This document shows positions 260-6,847 of a DNA stretch of 30,386 bases, one piece after another. The stretch is from a virus. Within the stretch, counting starts at the first letter, position 1. Every line of letters starts with the position of its first letter. The notes beneath the pieces are model-generated. The model was not told the DNA's origin. It made no database searches and saw only the letters and a list, made by a program, of their open reading frames with translations. The translations under genes were made by a program, and so were the position numbers. The stretch spans positions 1-30,386 of IMG/VR virus record IMGVR_UViG_3300031758_000379. One strand, written 5' to 3'.

Positions 260-673
260 ATGAATCGCAAATCTGACGCACTCACTTTGAAACAGGAAAA
301 ATTCTTAGAGGAATACCTCAAGGACAAAAACGGATTCCAGGCCGCGATCCGTGCCGGATACTCTCAAGGTTCCGCTCGCGGCATAGCTTTAAAGAATCTG
401 CAAAACCCCGTCATCGCCTCTAAGATCAAGGAAATTTCGGCCCGCGCGATTCAGCGTTCCGAGGTCGATGCCGCTTTTGTTATTCGCGAACTAAAAAAGG
501 TCGCTGAGCAGGAAGATGTCGCGCAGTCGACAAAAGTGCGCGCCCTGGAGCTCATCGCCAAGCATCTCGGGATGCTGGAAGACCGCGTTTCGCTGAAAGT
601 GGACGGCCTCACGGGCGAGCAACGCGCGGAGCGGGTTGCGATCTTGCTTGAGCGGGTCAAGCAGCGCGAATAA
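260..673 (+). CDS. terS: Terminase small subunit
   Basis: A 137-residue protein of the Terminase_2-type small subunit family. The signature is the N-terminal LTLKQEKFLEEYLKDKNGF followed by QAAIRAGYS (about residues 9-36), the helix-turn-helix region that recognises the packaging site. A helical oligomerisation region (about 60-105) and a charged tail follow. In tailed phages TerS forms a ring, binds pac or cos DNA and activates the large-subunit motor. The start is an ATG with a weak AAGG 9 bases upstream. Unusually, terL does not follow: its start is 4.67 kb downstream, with an inverted gene cluster between them. A repeat (AAAAGTGCG) begins inside the gene at 532 and recurs just after it. 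Family length and motif agree well. Confidence 0.92.
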   Translation: MNRKSDALTLKQEKFLEEYLKDKNGFQAAIRAGYSQGSARGIALKNLQNPVIASKIKEISARAIQRSEVDAAFVIRELKKVAEQEDVAQSTKVRALELIAKHLGMLEDRVSLKVDGLTGEQRAERVAILLERVKQRE

Positions 674-875
674 GTGCGACGGGGTATCAAAAAGTGCGGT
701 GAGGTTCGCAGCGCAAGGCAGGAATATCAAGAGATCCATAGATCGGGCACGCGCGCGACCCCAGAATTAGCAGTAGTGCGTGGACACAGTCAAGCACGAA
801 AAGTGCGGTGGCGTAAATCTGCGAAAACAGGGCACAAAAAAGTGCGCTTGGTCTGTGTTTAGAACAAAAAGTGCG
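532..875 (+). repeat. Six dispersed direct copies of (AA)AAGTGCG in and after terS
   Basis: AAAAGTGCG occurs at 532-540, 690-698, 800-808 (within AAAAGTGCGGTG), 838-846 and 867-875; a shorter AAGTGCG lies at 672-678, across the terS stop. All copies are in the same orientation. AGTGCG starts at 535, 673, 693, 802, 841 and 870, giving spacings of 138, 20, 109, 39 and 29. Flanks are also shared: ACAAAA precedes three copies, and GTGCGGTG follows two. AAATCTGCG is repeated at 815-823 and 890-898. I noticed no AAAAGTGCG elsewhere in the window. The placement next to terS suggests terminase-recognition (pac/cosB-like) sites, but that is inference. Confidence 0.6.
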
Positions 876-993
876 CCTCTTGTGGTAGCAAATCTGCGCC
901 AAGCCTGGTGCGGCCCGGATGAATTCTGCGCGCGGAAACGCTGTAAAACAAGGGCATCGCGGAGTGTTGCCAGAAAGGCGTTGTCAGGGCGGC
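674..993. other. Non-coding stretch after terS carrying the AAAAGTGCG repeats
   Basis: No open frame here has a credible start and composition. The longest plus-strand frames start at GTG codons that belong to the repeat itself. The stretch is A-rich around the repeats and otherwise GC-rich. It holds five of the six AAGTGCG copies and both AAATCTGCG copies. No clear promoter or intrinsic terminator was found. Confidence 0.5.
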
Positions 994-1280: not shown

Positions 1281-1721
1281 TTAGCGCATTTTGTTCTTAA
1301 TCTCTTTTGGCAATTCATCAGGGAAGGCTTGAAATGCCATCTCAGCAAGCCGCGATTTGTGCCCCGATATGCGTATATCGTGCCTGGTCATGAATTCTGC
1401 CAAGTATCCGACATTCATGTCCGAAACGTTGCCGTCTTCGTTGTCAAACCATGCTTCTAGGCAACCGATACAGAGGTTTTGATTTTTAATGCCATAAAAT
1501 TGCACGCTCGCATCAGTGATACGTCCGCAGTGGGTGCATTCCGTTGCGCCCACAAGTTGCGTTAGGTTGTGGATTTTCTGCGACATATCGCGCACTTGGT
1601 CAAGCATAATCGCGAAAACAAGGGGCGCGGGAACGTCTTGTCCACACAACCCACACAGGATGCCGCTATCAGGCCCGATAGCGGGCCGAATACGCGAGAA
1701 AGGGTGGTCGCATCGTTTCAT
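1281..1721 (-). CDS. Double zinc-finger hypothetical protein
   Basis: A 146-residue protein with two probable metal sites. The first uses C4, H6 and C23-x2-C26; the second is C62-x2-C65 with C84-x2-C87. A helical linker (about 34-58) joins them, and the C-terminal 55 residues are charged and helical. The start is fixed by GGAGG six bases before the ATG, in a 13-base sequence shared with the neighbouring 1799-2161 gene. It is the last gene of the minus-strand run and is followed by a good terminator. Its base composition is visibly more AT-rich than the genes upstream of it, suggesting a separate origin. Such zinc ribbons commonly bind nucleic acid or partner proteins; no specific function can be assigned. 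Confidence 0.8.
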   Translation of the reverse strand: MKRCDHPFSRIRPAIGPDSGILCGLCGQDVPAPLVFAIMLDQVRDMSQKIHNLTQLVGATECTHCGRITDASVQFYGIKNQNLCIGCLEAWFDNEDGNVSDMNVGYLAEFMTRHDIRISGHKSRLAEMAFQAFPDELPKEIKNKMR

Positions 1722-1757
1722 CGTGCCTCCAGTTGCGCATCATGTCCGCAAGGTTAA

Positions 1758-1779
1758 GCCCCGACCGCGAGGCCGGGGC
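1758..1779 (-). terminator. Hairpin after the 1799-2161 gene
   Basis: On the minus strand GCCCCG pairs with CGGGGC around a 10-base loop, followed by TTAACCTT, a poor U-tract. It follows the GTAAGGTGCGAGC repeat shared with the terminator region at 1232-1275. It may be a weak terminator or a structure protecting the message 3' end, allowing read-through into the 1281-1721 gene. Confidence 0.5.
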
Positions 1780-1798
1780 CGTAAGGTGCGAGCGGCTG

Positions 1799-2161
1799 TT
1801 ATTCGTAACGCCCGACGCTGGTCACGGCGTGCTCACCGGGGGTATCTTCCCATGCGATAAACACGGCCTCTCGCGCCAACACCGACGAAACGTCGCGCCC
1901 GTCGTCACGATCCGAGAAGGCGTCCCACAATGTGCGCGCGACCGCCAGCGGGTCATCATCGGGGCGCACAAGCGCGGAACCAAGCGGGATCCAAAGCTCC
2001 GTGTACCAGCCGCCCTCCTCGGGGCCGCCATAGGCAAGCGCGACGGAATAGGCGCCAGCCCAACGGGGGCGGTGGTGCGTTTCGTTGCCGTCGTCATCGA
2101 ACCGTCGCCGGTAGGGATTGGACGGCAAGCGATCTTCGCGGGGGTTGTCGGTGTCGGTCAT
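1799..2161 (-). CDS. Hypothetical acidic protein
   Basis: A 120-residue protein, acidic overall, with a charged N-terminal 30 residues (Asp/Arg-rich) and a more ordered middle (YSVALAYGGPEEGGWYTELW), then a helical segment (DPLAVARTLWDAFSDRDD). I see no metal-binding or membrane pattern. The start is secure: GGAGG six bases upstream, and the ATG overlaps the stop of the preceding minus-strand gene as ATGA, which implies translational coupling. The 5' and 3' flanks repeat those of the 1281-1721 gene. No family recognised. Confidence 0.72.
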   Translation of the reverse strand: MTDTDNPREDRLPSNPYRRRFDDDGNETHHRPRWAGAYSVALAYGGPEEGGWYTELWIPLGSALVRPDDDPLAVARTLWDAFSDRDDGRDVSSVLAREAVFIAWEDTPGEHAVTSVGRYE

Positions 2162-2346
2162 CGTGCCTCCCAGTCGCGGACCAGGTCCGCATAGGTGCGC
2201 CGCTCACGGCGTGTGGTCGCTTGCCAAGTTGCTTGCACCAAGGCGCGGGCCTCGAGCCGCGCTGAACAACTCTCGCACACCGCGTGCCCCTCGCGGATAA
2301 AGCGCGCGGACTCCTCGGCGCATCGGTCGCAGGGGTGATCTACCAT
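2158..2346 (-). CDS. Small zinc-finger protein
   Basis: A 62-residue protein with one C6-x2-C9 ... C24-x2-C27 site, flanked by H4 and H21, then a basic helical tail rich in Arg (TTRRERRTYADLVRDWE). This looks like a compact zinc ribbon that could bind nucleic acid. The frame is open further upstream, but the start at 2346 is preferred because it overlaps the previous gene's stop as ATGGTAG and the upstream part antisenses a better gene. There is no strong Shine-Dalgarno, so coupling to the upstream gene is likely. It overlaps the next gene by ATGA. Confidence 0.68.
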   Translation of the reverse strand: MVDHPCDRCAEESARFIREGHAVCESCSARLEARALVQATWQATTRRERRTYADLVRDWEAR

Positions 2347-2618
2347 GCGAGCTTGTCCAGGTATTCGCCCGCCGCACGGATAAATTCCGACGCCGTCACG
2401 CCGCACTGGCAATCAACGGTTCCATCGGTGTACGGGTGAGCGCAAGCCGTGTTACGGCTCGGGCGCCGCGCCAGGTGCCGCACGTTGGGGCCGACGCGCT
2501 GGACGCGCCGGATAGACCAGCCAAGCGCCGACGCCGTTGCGGGGTATTCCCAGTCAGTCTGGACAAGGGCGCCATTTACAATAAAGGCGCCATAATGCCT
2601 TTCCACGTCGCGTTTCAT
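2340..2618 (-). CDS. Hypothetical protein with C-x-H / C-x-C motif
   Basis: A 92-residue protein. The N-terminal half (HYGAFIVNGALVQTDWEYP) looks like a beta hairpin; the C-terminal part holds C59-x-H61 and C70-x-C72, a possible metal site, then a helix (TASEFIRAAGEYLDKLAW). The frame extends upstream to 2777, but GGAGG seven bases before the ATG at 2618 marks that start, and the upstream extension is Arg/Ala-rich and overlaps the gene at 2701-2988. No family recognised. Confidence 0.7.
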   Translation of the reverse strand: MKRDVERHYGAFIVNGALVQTDWEYPATASALGWSIRRVQRVGPNVRHLARRPSRNTACAHPYTDGTVDCQCGVTASEFIRAAGEYLDKLAW

Positions 2619-2700
2619 GTTCCCTCCGCCCGTCACGCGGGCACATTGTGCGCGGTAGGCGCACGCTGCAAGGGCCCTCGCGAGCTCCTGCGACGCGCGT

Positions 2701-2988
2701 CTACTCTCCGCCCTTGGCAAAATATGCGGCCGCTGCGTGAGCCGTCCGCGCGTCCCGGTACGCCTGGAACCCGCCAACAGTGTCGATGTCCGCGCCGTCG
2801 CGCGTCACGCGCACGGTGTAGCGGCGAGGATCGTTCCGGTGACGCTCGGACGTGACGAAAAACGTGCGCCCGTCCGTCGCCGGATAGGTGCGATCCGACA
2901 CGCGCGACTTGAAAAAGCGCAACGTTTCGCGCTCAAAAAAGTACCGACCCGCTTGTGCGTTTGCCGCCATGATTTGCTGCAATGTCAT
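2701..2988 (-). CDS. Small phage-type hypothetical protein
   Basis: A 95-residue protein with the pattern MTLQQIMAANAQAG...FFERETLRFFKSR...FFVTSERH...YTVRV...IDTVGGFQAYRDARTAHAAA. From memory this resembles a widespread, uncharacterised family of about 90-100 residues found on phages and conjugative elements, in which a sheet built from the FFKSR, FFVTSE and YTVRV strands is followed by the IDTVG-FQAY motif. The start at 2988 has AAGGG upstream. It is the first gene after a 106-base spacer with three hairpins, so it may be translated or stabilised separately from the genes upstream. Biochemical role unknown. Confidence 0.78.
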   Translation of the reverse strand: MTLQQIMAANAQAGRYFFERETLRFFKSRVSDRTYPATDGRTFFVTSERHRNDPRRYTVRVTRDGADIDTVGGFQAYRDARTAHAAAAYFAKGGE

Positions 2989-3017
2989 TTTCTACCCTTG
3001 CGCGTCACGCGCGCCAT

Positions 3018-3084
3018 CCGGGTTGAGCCCCGGTGCCAACGTCCCTCGCAGGGGCGCTCGCACCGAGACGCGGCCTGAGCCGCG
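3018..3084 (-). other. Three consecutive hairpins between minus-strand genes
   Basis: In the 106 bases between two minus-strand genes lie CCGGG-6-CCCGG (3018-3033), CCCT-3-AGGG (3043-3053) and CGCGGC-4-GCCGCG (3069-3084). None is followed by a T-run on the minus strand, so they are not canonical terminators. They could be RNA processing or stability elements. Confidence 0.45.
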
Positions 3085-3094
3085 CCCGGACGTG

Positions 3095-3289
3095 CTAGTC
3101 GTGCCACTCCCCGTCCTCGAACACACGCCGTGCCTCGTATCGGTGATCCTCGCGATCCGCGCAGCCGCAGCCCGTGTGATCGCCCCACGCTACCGCGTGG
3201 TTGATTGCGTTCGCCAACAGCCGCGCGAACCGTTGCGCCTGCGCGTCCGTCACGTTCCCCAGCGTGTCCCGCTTGATATAATAGACCAC
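3095..3289 (-). CDS. Small hypothetical protein, GTG start
   Basis: A 64-residue protein beginning VVYYIKRDTLGNVTDAQAQ after initiation at GTG, with helix RFARLLANAINHAVAW, a central H-x2-G-C-x-C segment and an acidic C-terminus (VFEDGEWHD). Initiation at 3289 is supported by GGGGG six bases upstream and by a TAGTG overlap with the stop of the 36-residue gene before it. An in-frame ATG exists further upstream at 3343, but it would overlap that gene almost completely. No family recognised. Confidence 0.62.
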   Translation of the reverse strand: MVYYIKRDTLGNVTDAQAQRFARLLANAINHAVAWGDHTGCGCADREDHRYEARRVFEDGEWHD

Positions 3290-3399
3290 TATCGCCCCCG
3301 TGCGGCATATGCCGCGTCGATAGACCGATCCTGCGCCGTCCACACGTACCCGATACCGGCGGCGAGCTCCGCCGCGAGCATCAAGACCGCTAGTGCCAT
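3289..3399 (-). CDS. 36-residue membrane microprotein
   Basis: ATG at 3399-3397 opens 36 codons ending at TAG 3291-3289. Residues 1-20 (MALAVLMLAAELAAGIGYVW) form one hydrophobic helix containing a single glutamate, followed by a short polar tail ending in AAYAARGR. It fits exactly between its neighbours: 8 bases after the stop of the 3408-3602 gene, and its stop shares one base with the GTG start of the next gene. AAGG lies a few bases upstream of the ATG. A single-helix inner-membrane peptide is the natural reading; no function can be given. Confidence 0.55.
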   Translation of the reverse strand: MALAVLMLAAELAAGIGYVWTAQDRSIDAAYAARGR

Positions 3400-3407
3400 G
3401 CCCTTGG

Positions 3408-3602
3408 TCACGACAGCACCGCCGCCCAAGCCGCGTCTCGCTTGTCCTTCAGCCGCCAAGCCGCCGCCTGAGCCGCCGCCGCCTCCCGGCTGTCGATGCC
3501 GTACGTCGCCACGGCTTCGGCCGCCGCGATGTATGCATCGCGCGTCGCCGCTGTCATTGCGTCCGCCAGGTCTTCCGCCGCTCGCCGCTCTCGTGTGGTC
3601 AT
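3408..3602 (-). CDS. Small Ala-rich helical protein
   Basis: A 64-residue protein, about one third alanine, built of charged helices (MTTRERRAAEDLADAMTAA, then DSREAAAAQAAAWRLKDKRD). It is the first gene of the minus-strand cluster. The start at 3602 is chosen because GGAGG lies 8 bases upstream; the frame extends further to 3671 but across the promoter. Composition suggests a small helical bundle or oligomer. No family recognised. Confidence 0.65.
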   Translation of the reverse strand: MTTRERRAAEDLADAMTAATRDAYIAAAEAVATYGIDSREAAAAQAAAWRLKDKRDAAWAAVLS

Positions 3603-3642
3603 CCGGTTATCCTCCGTCGCTGCACCGTGCCGCGATGATGAG

Positions 3643-3671
3643 AAGGTACAACGTGACGCCACGCTCGTCAA
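3643..3671 (-). promoter_or_regulatory. Sigma70-type promoter for the minus-strand cluster
   Basis: On the minus strand TTGACG (3671-3666, five of six consensus) is followed after 17 bases by TACCTT (3648-3643, three of six). The first gene's ATG is about 40 bases further on, with a GGAGG site between. The weak -10 box leaves room for an activator. Confidence 0.5.
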
Positions 3672-4983: not shown

Positions 4984-5345
4984 CTTGGTTTCGCAGAGCA
5001 TGGTGGGATTTTTTCTTTTGGGTTGCTCATTGGTTTGCGCCGCCAGATCCGATGCGCAAGCCACCAAAACCGCTGTTTGACAAAAGCGCCCATGATTTGA
5101 TTAATCTTTGCCGAAAGATTCGTGAGCAACAGAAAGAAATGATTGATGGTCAGTCGCGCTCTCGTTTTTTGAGCGTTGACGAATACCAACGGCTTCGCGA
5201 AGAGCAAATGCAGGCAATGCCTAGCATTCCGACAGGCATCTATCGCAGCACATCGTTAAGGCATTGTATGGATGCGGTAGAGCGAGACAGGAAGACTGCA
5301 ATAAAGGCGCAAAGCCAGCCGCTGACGCTCAAGGTTCAGAAATGA
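4980..5345 (+). CDS. Hypothetical protein with aromatic N-terminus
   Basis: A 121-residue protein. The first 20 residues are dominated by Trp and Phe (MTWFRRAWWDFFFWVAHWFA), interrupted by two Arg and one Asp, so it may be an amphipathic membrane-surface helix rather than a plain transmembrane span. A proline-rich turn (PPDPMRKPPKP) leads into charged helices (KIREQQKEMI). It is more AT-rich than the gene before it. It overlaps the preceding gene and terL by ATGA. Role unknown; position immediately before terL makes a packaging-linked or early accessory role possible but unproven. Confidence 0.7.
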   Translation: MTWFRRAWWDFFFWVAHWFAPPDPMRKPPKPLFDKSAHDLINLCRKIREQQKEMIDGQSRSRFLSVDEYQRLREEQMQAMPSIPTGIYRSTSLRHCMDAVERDRKTAIKAQSQPLTLKVQK

Positions 5346-6847
5346 CCAAGGAAGAACTTGACCGTTTGATCGCCAAGATGACGCCGACTGAGAAGTCGGA
5401 GTTTTTTGCCTTGATCGCGGCTGAGAAGAAAGAGCCTGTGTTCAAGGACGTGGCGTTCAAGGCGCAGACGGCGTTCTTGGAAGATCCGGCGCGCATGAAG
5501 GTGGTGCTGTGTACGCGCCGCTCGGGCAAGTCGTATGGCGCCGGCCTGATGCTGATGCGTGATGCCTACGAGACACCCAACGTGTCGTGCTTGTACGTGG
5601 CGCTGACGCGGGCGTCTGCCAAGCGGATTATGTGGAAGGACGTGCTGAAGACGATTGATCGTGAGCAGGCGCTTGGGTGCCGGTTCAACGAGACTGAGTT
5701 GTCGGTGACGCTGCCCAACGGGAGCATGATCTACCTGCTTGGCATGGACGCGGACGAGCAGGAAAAGGACAAGGCGCTCGGTCAGAAGTTCAAGAGCGTG
5801 GTGATTGATGAGGCTGCGTCCTACGGCGTGGACTTGCATGAGATGGTGTACGGCATTTTGAAGCCGGCGACCGCTGACTATCGCGGCACGATTGCGATGA
5901 TCGGGACGCCGGGAAACATGAAGCGCGGGTTGTTTTACGACCTGACGAAGGGCCAGGTTCCCGGCGAGGCGGGTCGCTGGGAAAAGATGGGCTGGAGCGG
6001 CCATCGTTGGACGGCGTTCGACAACCCGCACATGGCAGACAAGTGGAAGGCAGAGATTGAGGATTTGAAGCTGGCAAACCCGCTGATTGAGGAAACGCCG
6101 CTGTTTCAGCAGCACTACCTCGGCAAGTGGGTGATTGACGACAGCAACCTGGTCTACCGCTTTGACTACGAGAAGAACACGTTTGACGAGTTGCCGGCGA
6201 TCACCAAGAAGGGGCGCTGGCACTACGTGCTGGGCATCGACCTTGGGTTTAACGACCCGACCGCGTGGGTGGTGTGCGCGTATCACGACAGCGACCGCAC
6301 CTTGTACGTGCTCGGGGCGCACAAGAAAGACAAGTGCGACATCACCGAGGTCGCTGACCAGACGCGCAAGCTGATGGGGCGCTTTGACTTTGACCGGATC
6401 GTGATCGACAACGCCAACAAGCAGGCGGTCGAGGAAATGCGGCGTCGGCATGACATCCCGCTTGTGGGCGCAGAGAAGGCGGGCAAAGCTGACTTCATGG
6501 AACTGATGAACGGCGACTTTGTGAGTGCGCGGATCAAGCTGCACAAGAAGGCGGCTGCGCCGTTGATTGACGAGTACTCGCAACTGATCTGGGATGACCG
6601 GAGCCAGAGGCGCGAAGAGCATCCTGGGTGTGCCAACCACTGCACGGACGCGGCGTTGTACGCATGGCGGCACTGCTACGCCTACCTGTCGGACATGAGG
6701 CAGGACAACGGGTTGCGTTACGGCAAGAGCGAGGATGAGTGGATGCTGATGCAGGAGGAGCAGGAGTTGGAGCGACTGCTGCAAGAGAAGCGGAACATGG
6801 AAGCGGAGATTGAGTTGTACGGCGACCCGCTGGATCAACTGAACTAA
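5342..6847 (+). CDS. terL: Terminase large subunit (ATPase and nuclease)
   Basis: A 501-residue packaging motor. The ATPase domain has Walker A CTRRSGKS (57-64) and Walker B VVIDEA (153-158), followed by the coupling segment IAMIGTPGN (184-192). The C-terminal RNase H-like nuclease has acidic residues D300 (VLGIDLGFND), D356 (RIVIDNAN) and D436 (CTDAALYAW), as in headful and cos-cutting terminases. The enzyme docks on the portal, pumps DNA into the procapsid and cuts the concatemer. The start at 5342 overlaps the previous stop as ATGA; the frame extends 26 codons upstream, but that part antagonises the overlapping gene. TerS lies 4.67 kb upstream, not adjacent as usual. The highly charged C-terminal tail (QEEQELERLLQEKRNMEAE) is a coiled coil. 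Confidence 0.95.
   Translation: MTKEELDRLIAKMTPTEKSEFFALIAAEKKEPVFKDVAFKAQTAFLEDPARMKVVLCTRRSGKSYGAGLMLMRDAYETPNVSCLYVALTRASAKRIMWKDVLKTIDREQALGCRFNETELSVTLPNGSMIYLLGMDADEQEKDKALGQKFKSVVIDEAASYGVDLHEMVYGILKPATADYRGTIAMIGTPGNMKRGLFYDLTKGQVPGEAGRWEKMGWSGHRWTAFDNPHMADKWKAEIEDLKLANPLIEETPLFQQHYLGKWVIDDSNLVYRFDYEKNTFDELPAITKKGRWHYVLGIDLGFNDPTAWVVCAYHDSDRTLYVLGAHKKDKCDITEVADQTRKLMGRFDFDRIVIDNANKQAVEEMRRRHDIPLVGAEKAGKADFMELMNGDFVSARIKLHKKAAAPLIDEYSQLIWDDRSQRREEHPGCANHCTDAALYAWRHCYAYLSDMRQDNGLRYGKSEDEWMLMQEEQELERLLQEKRNMEAEIELYGDPLDQLN

Follow-up and report, generated by a model that had tools for sequence, protein, structure and literature searches.

An array of a nine-base word repeated in one direction at the small terminase gene of an uncultured phage, a candidate packaging-initiation site

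The stretch of DNA we analysed (the window) is a linear record of one uncultured tailed phage, 30,386 b long, whose terS gene (Table 1) encodes a terminase small subunit. This protein matched Pfam Terminase_2 (PF03592) with an E-value of 9e-22 and 78.6 bits against a cutoff of 26.1, and it also matched PHROG 51, terminase small subunit, and PDB entry 3zqp (E-value 3e-10). An AF2 model had a mean pLDDT of 69.6, with ~90 in the DNA-binding domain (DBD), which matched 4zc3 at a TM of 0.90; the HTH helices were predicted at residues 25-31 and 36-47. Given the score above the PF03592 cutoff and the SF6-like DBD fold, TerS is a Terminase_2/SPP1-type protein. The gene that follows, for which no family was found, probably starts at 994 because that start is common to the relatives, and positions 674-993 are then non-coding. 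Between this gene and a converging minus-strand block lies a terminator-like hairpin (1237-1262), which was scored only on the minus strand. The minus-strand ORFs at 1281-3671, between terS and terL, form a variable accessory island that is mostly different in the relatives, and many contigs of the window's family break within this region. After terL come a P22/SU10-like portal gene and an SU10-like capsid gene, the latter with no match in any cultured phage.

Five exact copies of AAAAGTGCG lie within 532-875, all on the plus strand, and the word occurs nowhere else on either strand of the 30,386-base record. An earlier sequence-only reading of this DNA had counted six copies in the same direction, five of them full-length, and this was correct, the sixth being the degenerate TAAGTGCG (also present in L006-L012, L015, and L016); the coordinates likewise confirmed its placement of one copy in terS, one across the stop, and the rest behind. 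Two AAATCTGCG variants stretch the end of the array to 898, so that it begins in the 3' portion of terS and ends ~230 bp behind the gene, with repeats on both sides of a GC-rich core. Shuffling gave a mean expectation of 0.35 copies of AAAAGTGCG per record and none of 100 shuffles reached five. Any other 9-mer in the window had at most three copies per 400 nt, and in 100 Markov-3 simulations the maximum for any 9-mer in 400 nt was four copies, seen once; five were never seen. AAGTGCG by itself is not rare (10 copies in the window vs 7.6 expected).

Table 1. Features of the window at and around terS
Feature	Position	Strand	Basis or remark
terS, terminase small subunit, 137 aa, SF6/SPP1 G1P type	260..673	+	Pfam, PHROG, PDB, AF2
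TerS DNA-binding domain (DBD) coding region, hypervariable among close relatives	260..463	+	
Array copy 1, AAAAGTGCG	532..540	+	inside terS, codons K92 V93 R94
Degenerate copy, TAAGTGCG	671..678	+	overlaps terS stop TAA (671-673)
Array copy 2, AAAAGTGCG	690..698	+	
Conserved GC-rich core AGATCGGGCACGCGCGCGA, candidate cleavage or organising site	740..758	+	between repeats
Array copy 3, AAAAGTGCG	799..807	+	
Variant copy, AAATCTGCG	815..823	+	
Array copy 4, AAAAGTGCG	838..846	+	
Array copy 5 (867-875) with conserved flank, CCTCTTGTGG	867..885	+	
Variant copy, AAATCTGCG	890..898	+	
Gene of unknown function, 79 aa	994..1233	+	homologues in relatives
terL, terminase large subunit	5342..6847	+	Pfam Terminase_6N, PHROG 2

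Close and distant relatives were gathered by TerS and TerL scans, and conservation was counted in ten sequences from nine lineages, with a near zone running from terS -260 to the terS stop +560 (11.0 kb). Within this zone the terS strand carried 45 occurrences of AAA[AT][GC]TGCG and the other strand 0, compared with 6 in the 167.8 kb outside it, making the near zone ~115-fold denser. In eight lineages the array is linked to terS, with a single direction throughout and 3-8 copies of the nine-base word per phage, and it may lie in front of the gene (L233/L237), in front of, inside, and behind it (L014), or inside and behind it (the other lineages); spacing, copy number, and side of terS thus differ among lineages, while the word and its direction are constant. 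The copy within the gene, AAA GTG CGC, was invariant in 12 of 12 sequences, whereas all other invariant V and R positions compared vary in codon, and we therefore take this copy to be under synonymous constraint. In L244 the array near terS has been lost and the copy within the gene has changed to AAAGTTCG; L243, like L244, encodes a TerS of the window's family and carries no array. Among 33 more distant Terminase_2 loci none had AAAGTGCG near terS and most had no array whatever, and 8-mer repeats were rare near the terS genes of other Terminase_2 loci. On another Terminase_2 terS contig (L102, near 1841-2197) a different word, around TTAAGGGTTCA, occurs four times close to terS. The 19-mer AAAAGTGCSCCKCTTGTGG, comprising copy 5 and its flank, was found in nine contigs only, all of the window's family, a confinement on which we rejected the idea of satellites bearing the site without terS.

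A near-complete relative, a 45,569-b contig on which terS and the genes for structure, lysis, and replication follow one order, holds five copies of AAAAGTGCG, all at 42,939-43,434 beside terS, so that the genome-wide count proposed in the sequence-only reading found no scatter of the word. (This contig was placed in an 'Actinomycetales' MAG, perhaps wrongly, and the placement does not fix the host.) Short direct repeats in one direction beside a GC-rich core look iteron-like, and they might be replication-origin iterons bound by a phage initiator, but this same relative has an O-like gene (35,771-36,739) with iteron-like repeats of its own, ~7 kb from the array, and the array lies neither in nor beside an initiator gene; we consider an origin at the array very improbable. 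The 12-base iteron-like repeats within that O-like gene (L206, 16191-16248) are themselves likely the origin of the near-complete relative.

The edges of the word are sharp. Across 50 near sites, which were picked by the core of the word and hence are informative for their flanks only, the flanking bases were random, apart from a bias towards A immediately ahead of the word and C immediately behind it. This bears on whether the word is a DNA uptake sequence of the Pasteurellaceae type (USS, AAGTGCGGT) or has arisen by chance. The copies at 690 and 799 do read AAGTGCGGT, and GTGCGGT repeats were present in three loci of the array scan described below, but the remaining copies lack GGT, the word is confined to one place, and AAGTGCGGT was not found in many copies genome-wide on both strands as expected of an uptake sequence. 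We give an uptake or chance origin practically no credence.

Between the repeats the pattern AGANCGGGCACGCGCNNGA is present in most lineages, and it accompanies the array in the window's family only. Related cores, likewise GC-rich, occur in more distant lineages, in some cases with inverted arms that match each other; the core of the window has no arms. Where such arms lie behind terS (L244 3785-3850; L013 2725-2770; L233 2800-2850) their sequence differs by lineage and is still self-matching. The core at 740-758 could be a cleavage site. Contig ends in the window's family scatter over the terS-terL region and none falls in the array or core, giving no hint of cohesive ends. A hairpin-telomere site was rejected, as we noticed no protelomerase-like ORF among the ORFs of the near-complete relative (by reading them, not by profile search) and the core is not a consistent palindrome. 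An RNA hairpin at the core was rejected as well, the arms being present in some lineages only. More broadly, the repeats might act in the terS transcript as a leader, a sponge, or a structured RNA, and the arms that have changed yet still match in L013, L233, and L244 speak for such an element. The array region has no Rfam match, however, the window lacks arms, the repeats occur before, inside, and behind terS, and the word has no known RNA role, and we regard an RNA-level function as highly improbable.

The main rival to a packaging site is an operator array, in which the repeats would be bound by a regulator of phage or host origin, or by TerS acting on its own synthesis, so that transcription of either terS or the gene at 994 is controlled. 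Direct-repeat operators exist. Lineages L012 and L016 have a small LuxR/GerE-like HTH gene (read from sequence) directly behind the array, one copy follows an AATAGA-like element in L086, L204, and L016, and, going by the title of a reference cited in PMC6316719, SPP1 TerS binds pac and represses its own synthesis. On the other hand, we found no sigma-70-like promoter in positions 1-1400 of the window, and no convincing homologue of the small HTH gene turned up in other lineages, so there is no constant regulator gene; the restriction of that HTH gene to L012 and L016 also led us to reject a LuxR-type HTH protein as the general binder. Neither a promoter nor a cognate regulator was thus linked to the array in all lineages. 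Moreover, copies lie inside terS, the side of terS changes, and an operator does not need a strict one-strand orientation for its function. We therefore rate an operator as unlikely, though it is the strongest of the rivals.

If TerS is the protein that recognizes the array, its DBD behaves unexpectedly. In a comparison of L007 with L011, nucleotide identity is 91% over the upstream 250 bp, falls to 67% in the DBD-coding part (38 of 68 DBD residues identical), and is 96% in the C-terminal part and 100% in the 330 bp holding the array. The DBD island (L007 5969-6172 vs L011 6001-6204; 260-463 in the window) looks as if it had been swapped by recombination, and selection from interference with packaging is possibly responsible. 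As the DBD, its recognition helix included, is hypervariable and the array identical, the HTH may not be a base-specific reader. Recognition that co-varies with the TerS DBD, which would support a pac site and does not strictly define one, was accordingly not seen in L007 and L011. In lambda-like phages packaging specificity is tied to the recognition helix (PMC4669245), but work on SF6 found no sequence preference when its DBD bound pac DNA and proposed shape selection of bent DNA (PMC4737164); since the SF6 DBD is itself non-specific, the pairing of a variable DBD with a constant array is compatible with a pac site. If TerS does read the array, it probably makes contact otherwise than through the variable face of its HTH recognition helix. 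The reader of the word would be either another part of the terminase, a host protein, or the DBD by way of its conserved residues.

A host DNA-bending or nucleoid protein, acting in packaging or in transcription and with the host providing the specificity, would account for a constant array beside a variable TerS DBD, and also for one word in phages with unrelated TerS (see below). A peak of predicted curvature at 843-865 (99.8th percentile) fits such a protein, but stronger bends are predicted elsewhere in the window, we identified no known host protein with such a site, and the arrays are specifically at terS; we think this explanation quite unlikely. Curvature as the main signal was rejected, the array not being the maximum.

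We also scanned IMG/VR for triple AAAGTGCG arrays, with the reversed word as control. The scan returned 69 contigs and the control word 21; about half of the 69 belonged to one low-GC family, five to the window's family, and three had uptake-sequence repeats (GTGCGGT). With 21 control matches against 69, and most of the remaining matches near background, we rejected the idea that the word is unique to these phages. In the low-GC family (L017, L019, L020, L022, and ~30 more) three AAAGTGCG copies at 14-15 base spacing lie between an HNH-like and another minus-strand gene, and no TerS of the window's family was found near them. The scan also led to phages with a different TerS, which carries an N-terminal 'KEWC' HTH with the consensus DWGALQ..F..EHA.TGIS.K.WC...GLNY.TARRYIK. 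These phages come from seven host genera, among Enterobacterales, Aeromonas, Pasteurella, and Vibrio (e.g., RothD, PhiR12_3, and vB_YenM_29.18). All nine records of cultured phages checked had at least one exact AAANTGCG[AC]A inside terS on the gene strand, and seven had two or more; one further record, Vibrio phage 1.155.O, had no copy of AAANTGCG[AC]A. Near-variants such as AATCTGCG occur alongside these copies, and several of the genes use more than one reading frame. In L251-L259, L261-L263, L030, L052, and L057 the AAANTGCG[AC]A arrays lie in the linker behind the KEWC HTH, in several frames, and a relaxed array pattern added L262, L263, and L264, each encoding a KEWC HTH beside the array. 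On the low-GC contig L264 (1234-2400) the AAANTGCG array is just before the KEWC-HTH gene, mostly on the opposite strand, and beside a ParA-like gene.

The control word retrieved no KEWC TerS, and we find the association of the KEWC HTH with the word credible. The window's family lacks the KEWC HTH, and homology of the KEWC HTH to the Terminase_2 DBD was not supported, profile comparison having found none. That two types of TerS share the word may reflect convergence or chance, these phages having been found through a search for the word, and the common word would back a packaging role by analogy only. A bolder proposal, which we put forward tentatively and consider doubtful, is that the direct AAANTGCG array is the packaging word of at least two unrelated TerS families (Terminase_2 podovirus-like and KEWC-HTH), a portable specificity cassette linked to terS that is not read by the variable recognition helix of Terminase_2.

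Taken together, our best reading is that the array is a packaging-initiation site linked to TerS, of pac or cosB type, and we hold it with moderate confidence. A terminase recognition site fits the terS linkage and the KEWC parallel better than an operator does, and we prefer it because of the one-direction link to terS in eight lineages and the arrays within KEWC terS genes. As expected of pac, a repeated sequence is present in and beside terS; the array keeps company with the gene when its side changes (L233/L237, L014), and L244 has lost both the array and the copy within the gene. The sharp edges of the word, the synonymous constraint on the copy within terS, and the clustering on one strand, also in the near-complete relative, speak for a packaging site as well. 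Counting against it are the DBD that varies beside an identical array, the TerS of L244 and L243 without an array, the 33 distant loci without AAAGTGCG, and the lack of contig ends in the array. The pac or cosB-like role suggested in the sequence-only reading thus gained from the unscattered, one-directional link to terS, and its attribution to TerS binding was weakened by the variable DBD beside a constant array. Mechanistically, direct AAA[AT][GC]TGCG copies would bring the terminase, first a TerS ring and afterwards TerL, to concatemeric phage DNA, their common orientation would set the direction of packaging, and the core would possibly receive the first cut. A 2022 review (PMC9611059) describes how small terminases select phage DNA as a question still to be answered, in vitro binding by the TerS of pac phages being weak and showing no sequence preference. 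The array, with its natural losses (L244), relocations (L233/L237), and DBD swaps (L007/L011), offers natural pairs in which to ask if bases are read by the DBD at all, and the cultured enterobacterial phages that share the core word, with an unrelated TerS group, bring tractable hosts.

Recognition sites adjacent to terS are already known from SPP1, P22, and lambda; in the open-licence papers searched we found no multi-copy word in one direction and of such sharpness behind the terS of a Terminase_2 phage. In SPP1, pac extends over the beginning of terS and has direct repeats within it (PMC6316719, PMC4737164), and SPP1/SF6 share with the window the TerS family and DBD fold, a site beside or overlapping terS, direct repeats, and a cut region between recognition regions (PMC6316719, PMC4737164), to which we liken the core. 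However, SPP1 pac is at the terS promoter and start whereas the window array is mostly behind terS, the box repeats of SPP1 and SF6 are only moderately conserved in contrast to one sharp nine-base word, and terL in the window is 4.7 kb from terS, unlike in SPP1/SF6. Lambda cosB has three TerS sites (PMC4669245), and cosB and cosN resemble the window in having repeated short sites beside a GC-rich site of partial symmetry; R2 of the three R sites is inverted (PMC4669245) whereas the window copies all have one direction, and lambda TerS is a winged-HTH dimer of another family (PMC4669245), the window showing no evidence of cohesive ends. P22 pac is inside terS (PMC9611059), as is part of the window array, but it is a single 22-bp asymmetric sequence (PMC9611059) and not an array. 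For the KEWC-HTH phages, no packaging sites were found in the literature searched; their array, inside terS, follows an N-terminal HTH absent from the window's family, and like the window they carry the word, as AAANTGCG[AC]A arrays, on the coding strand and within terS.
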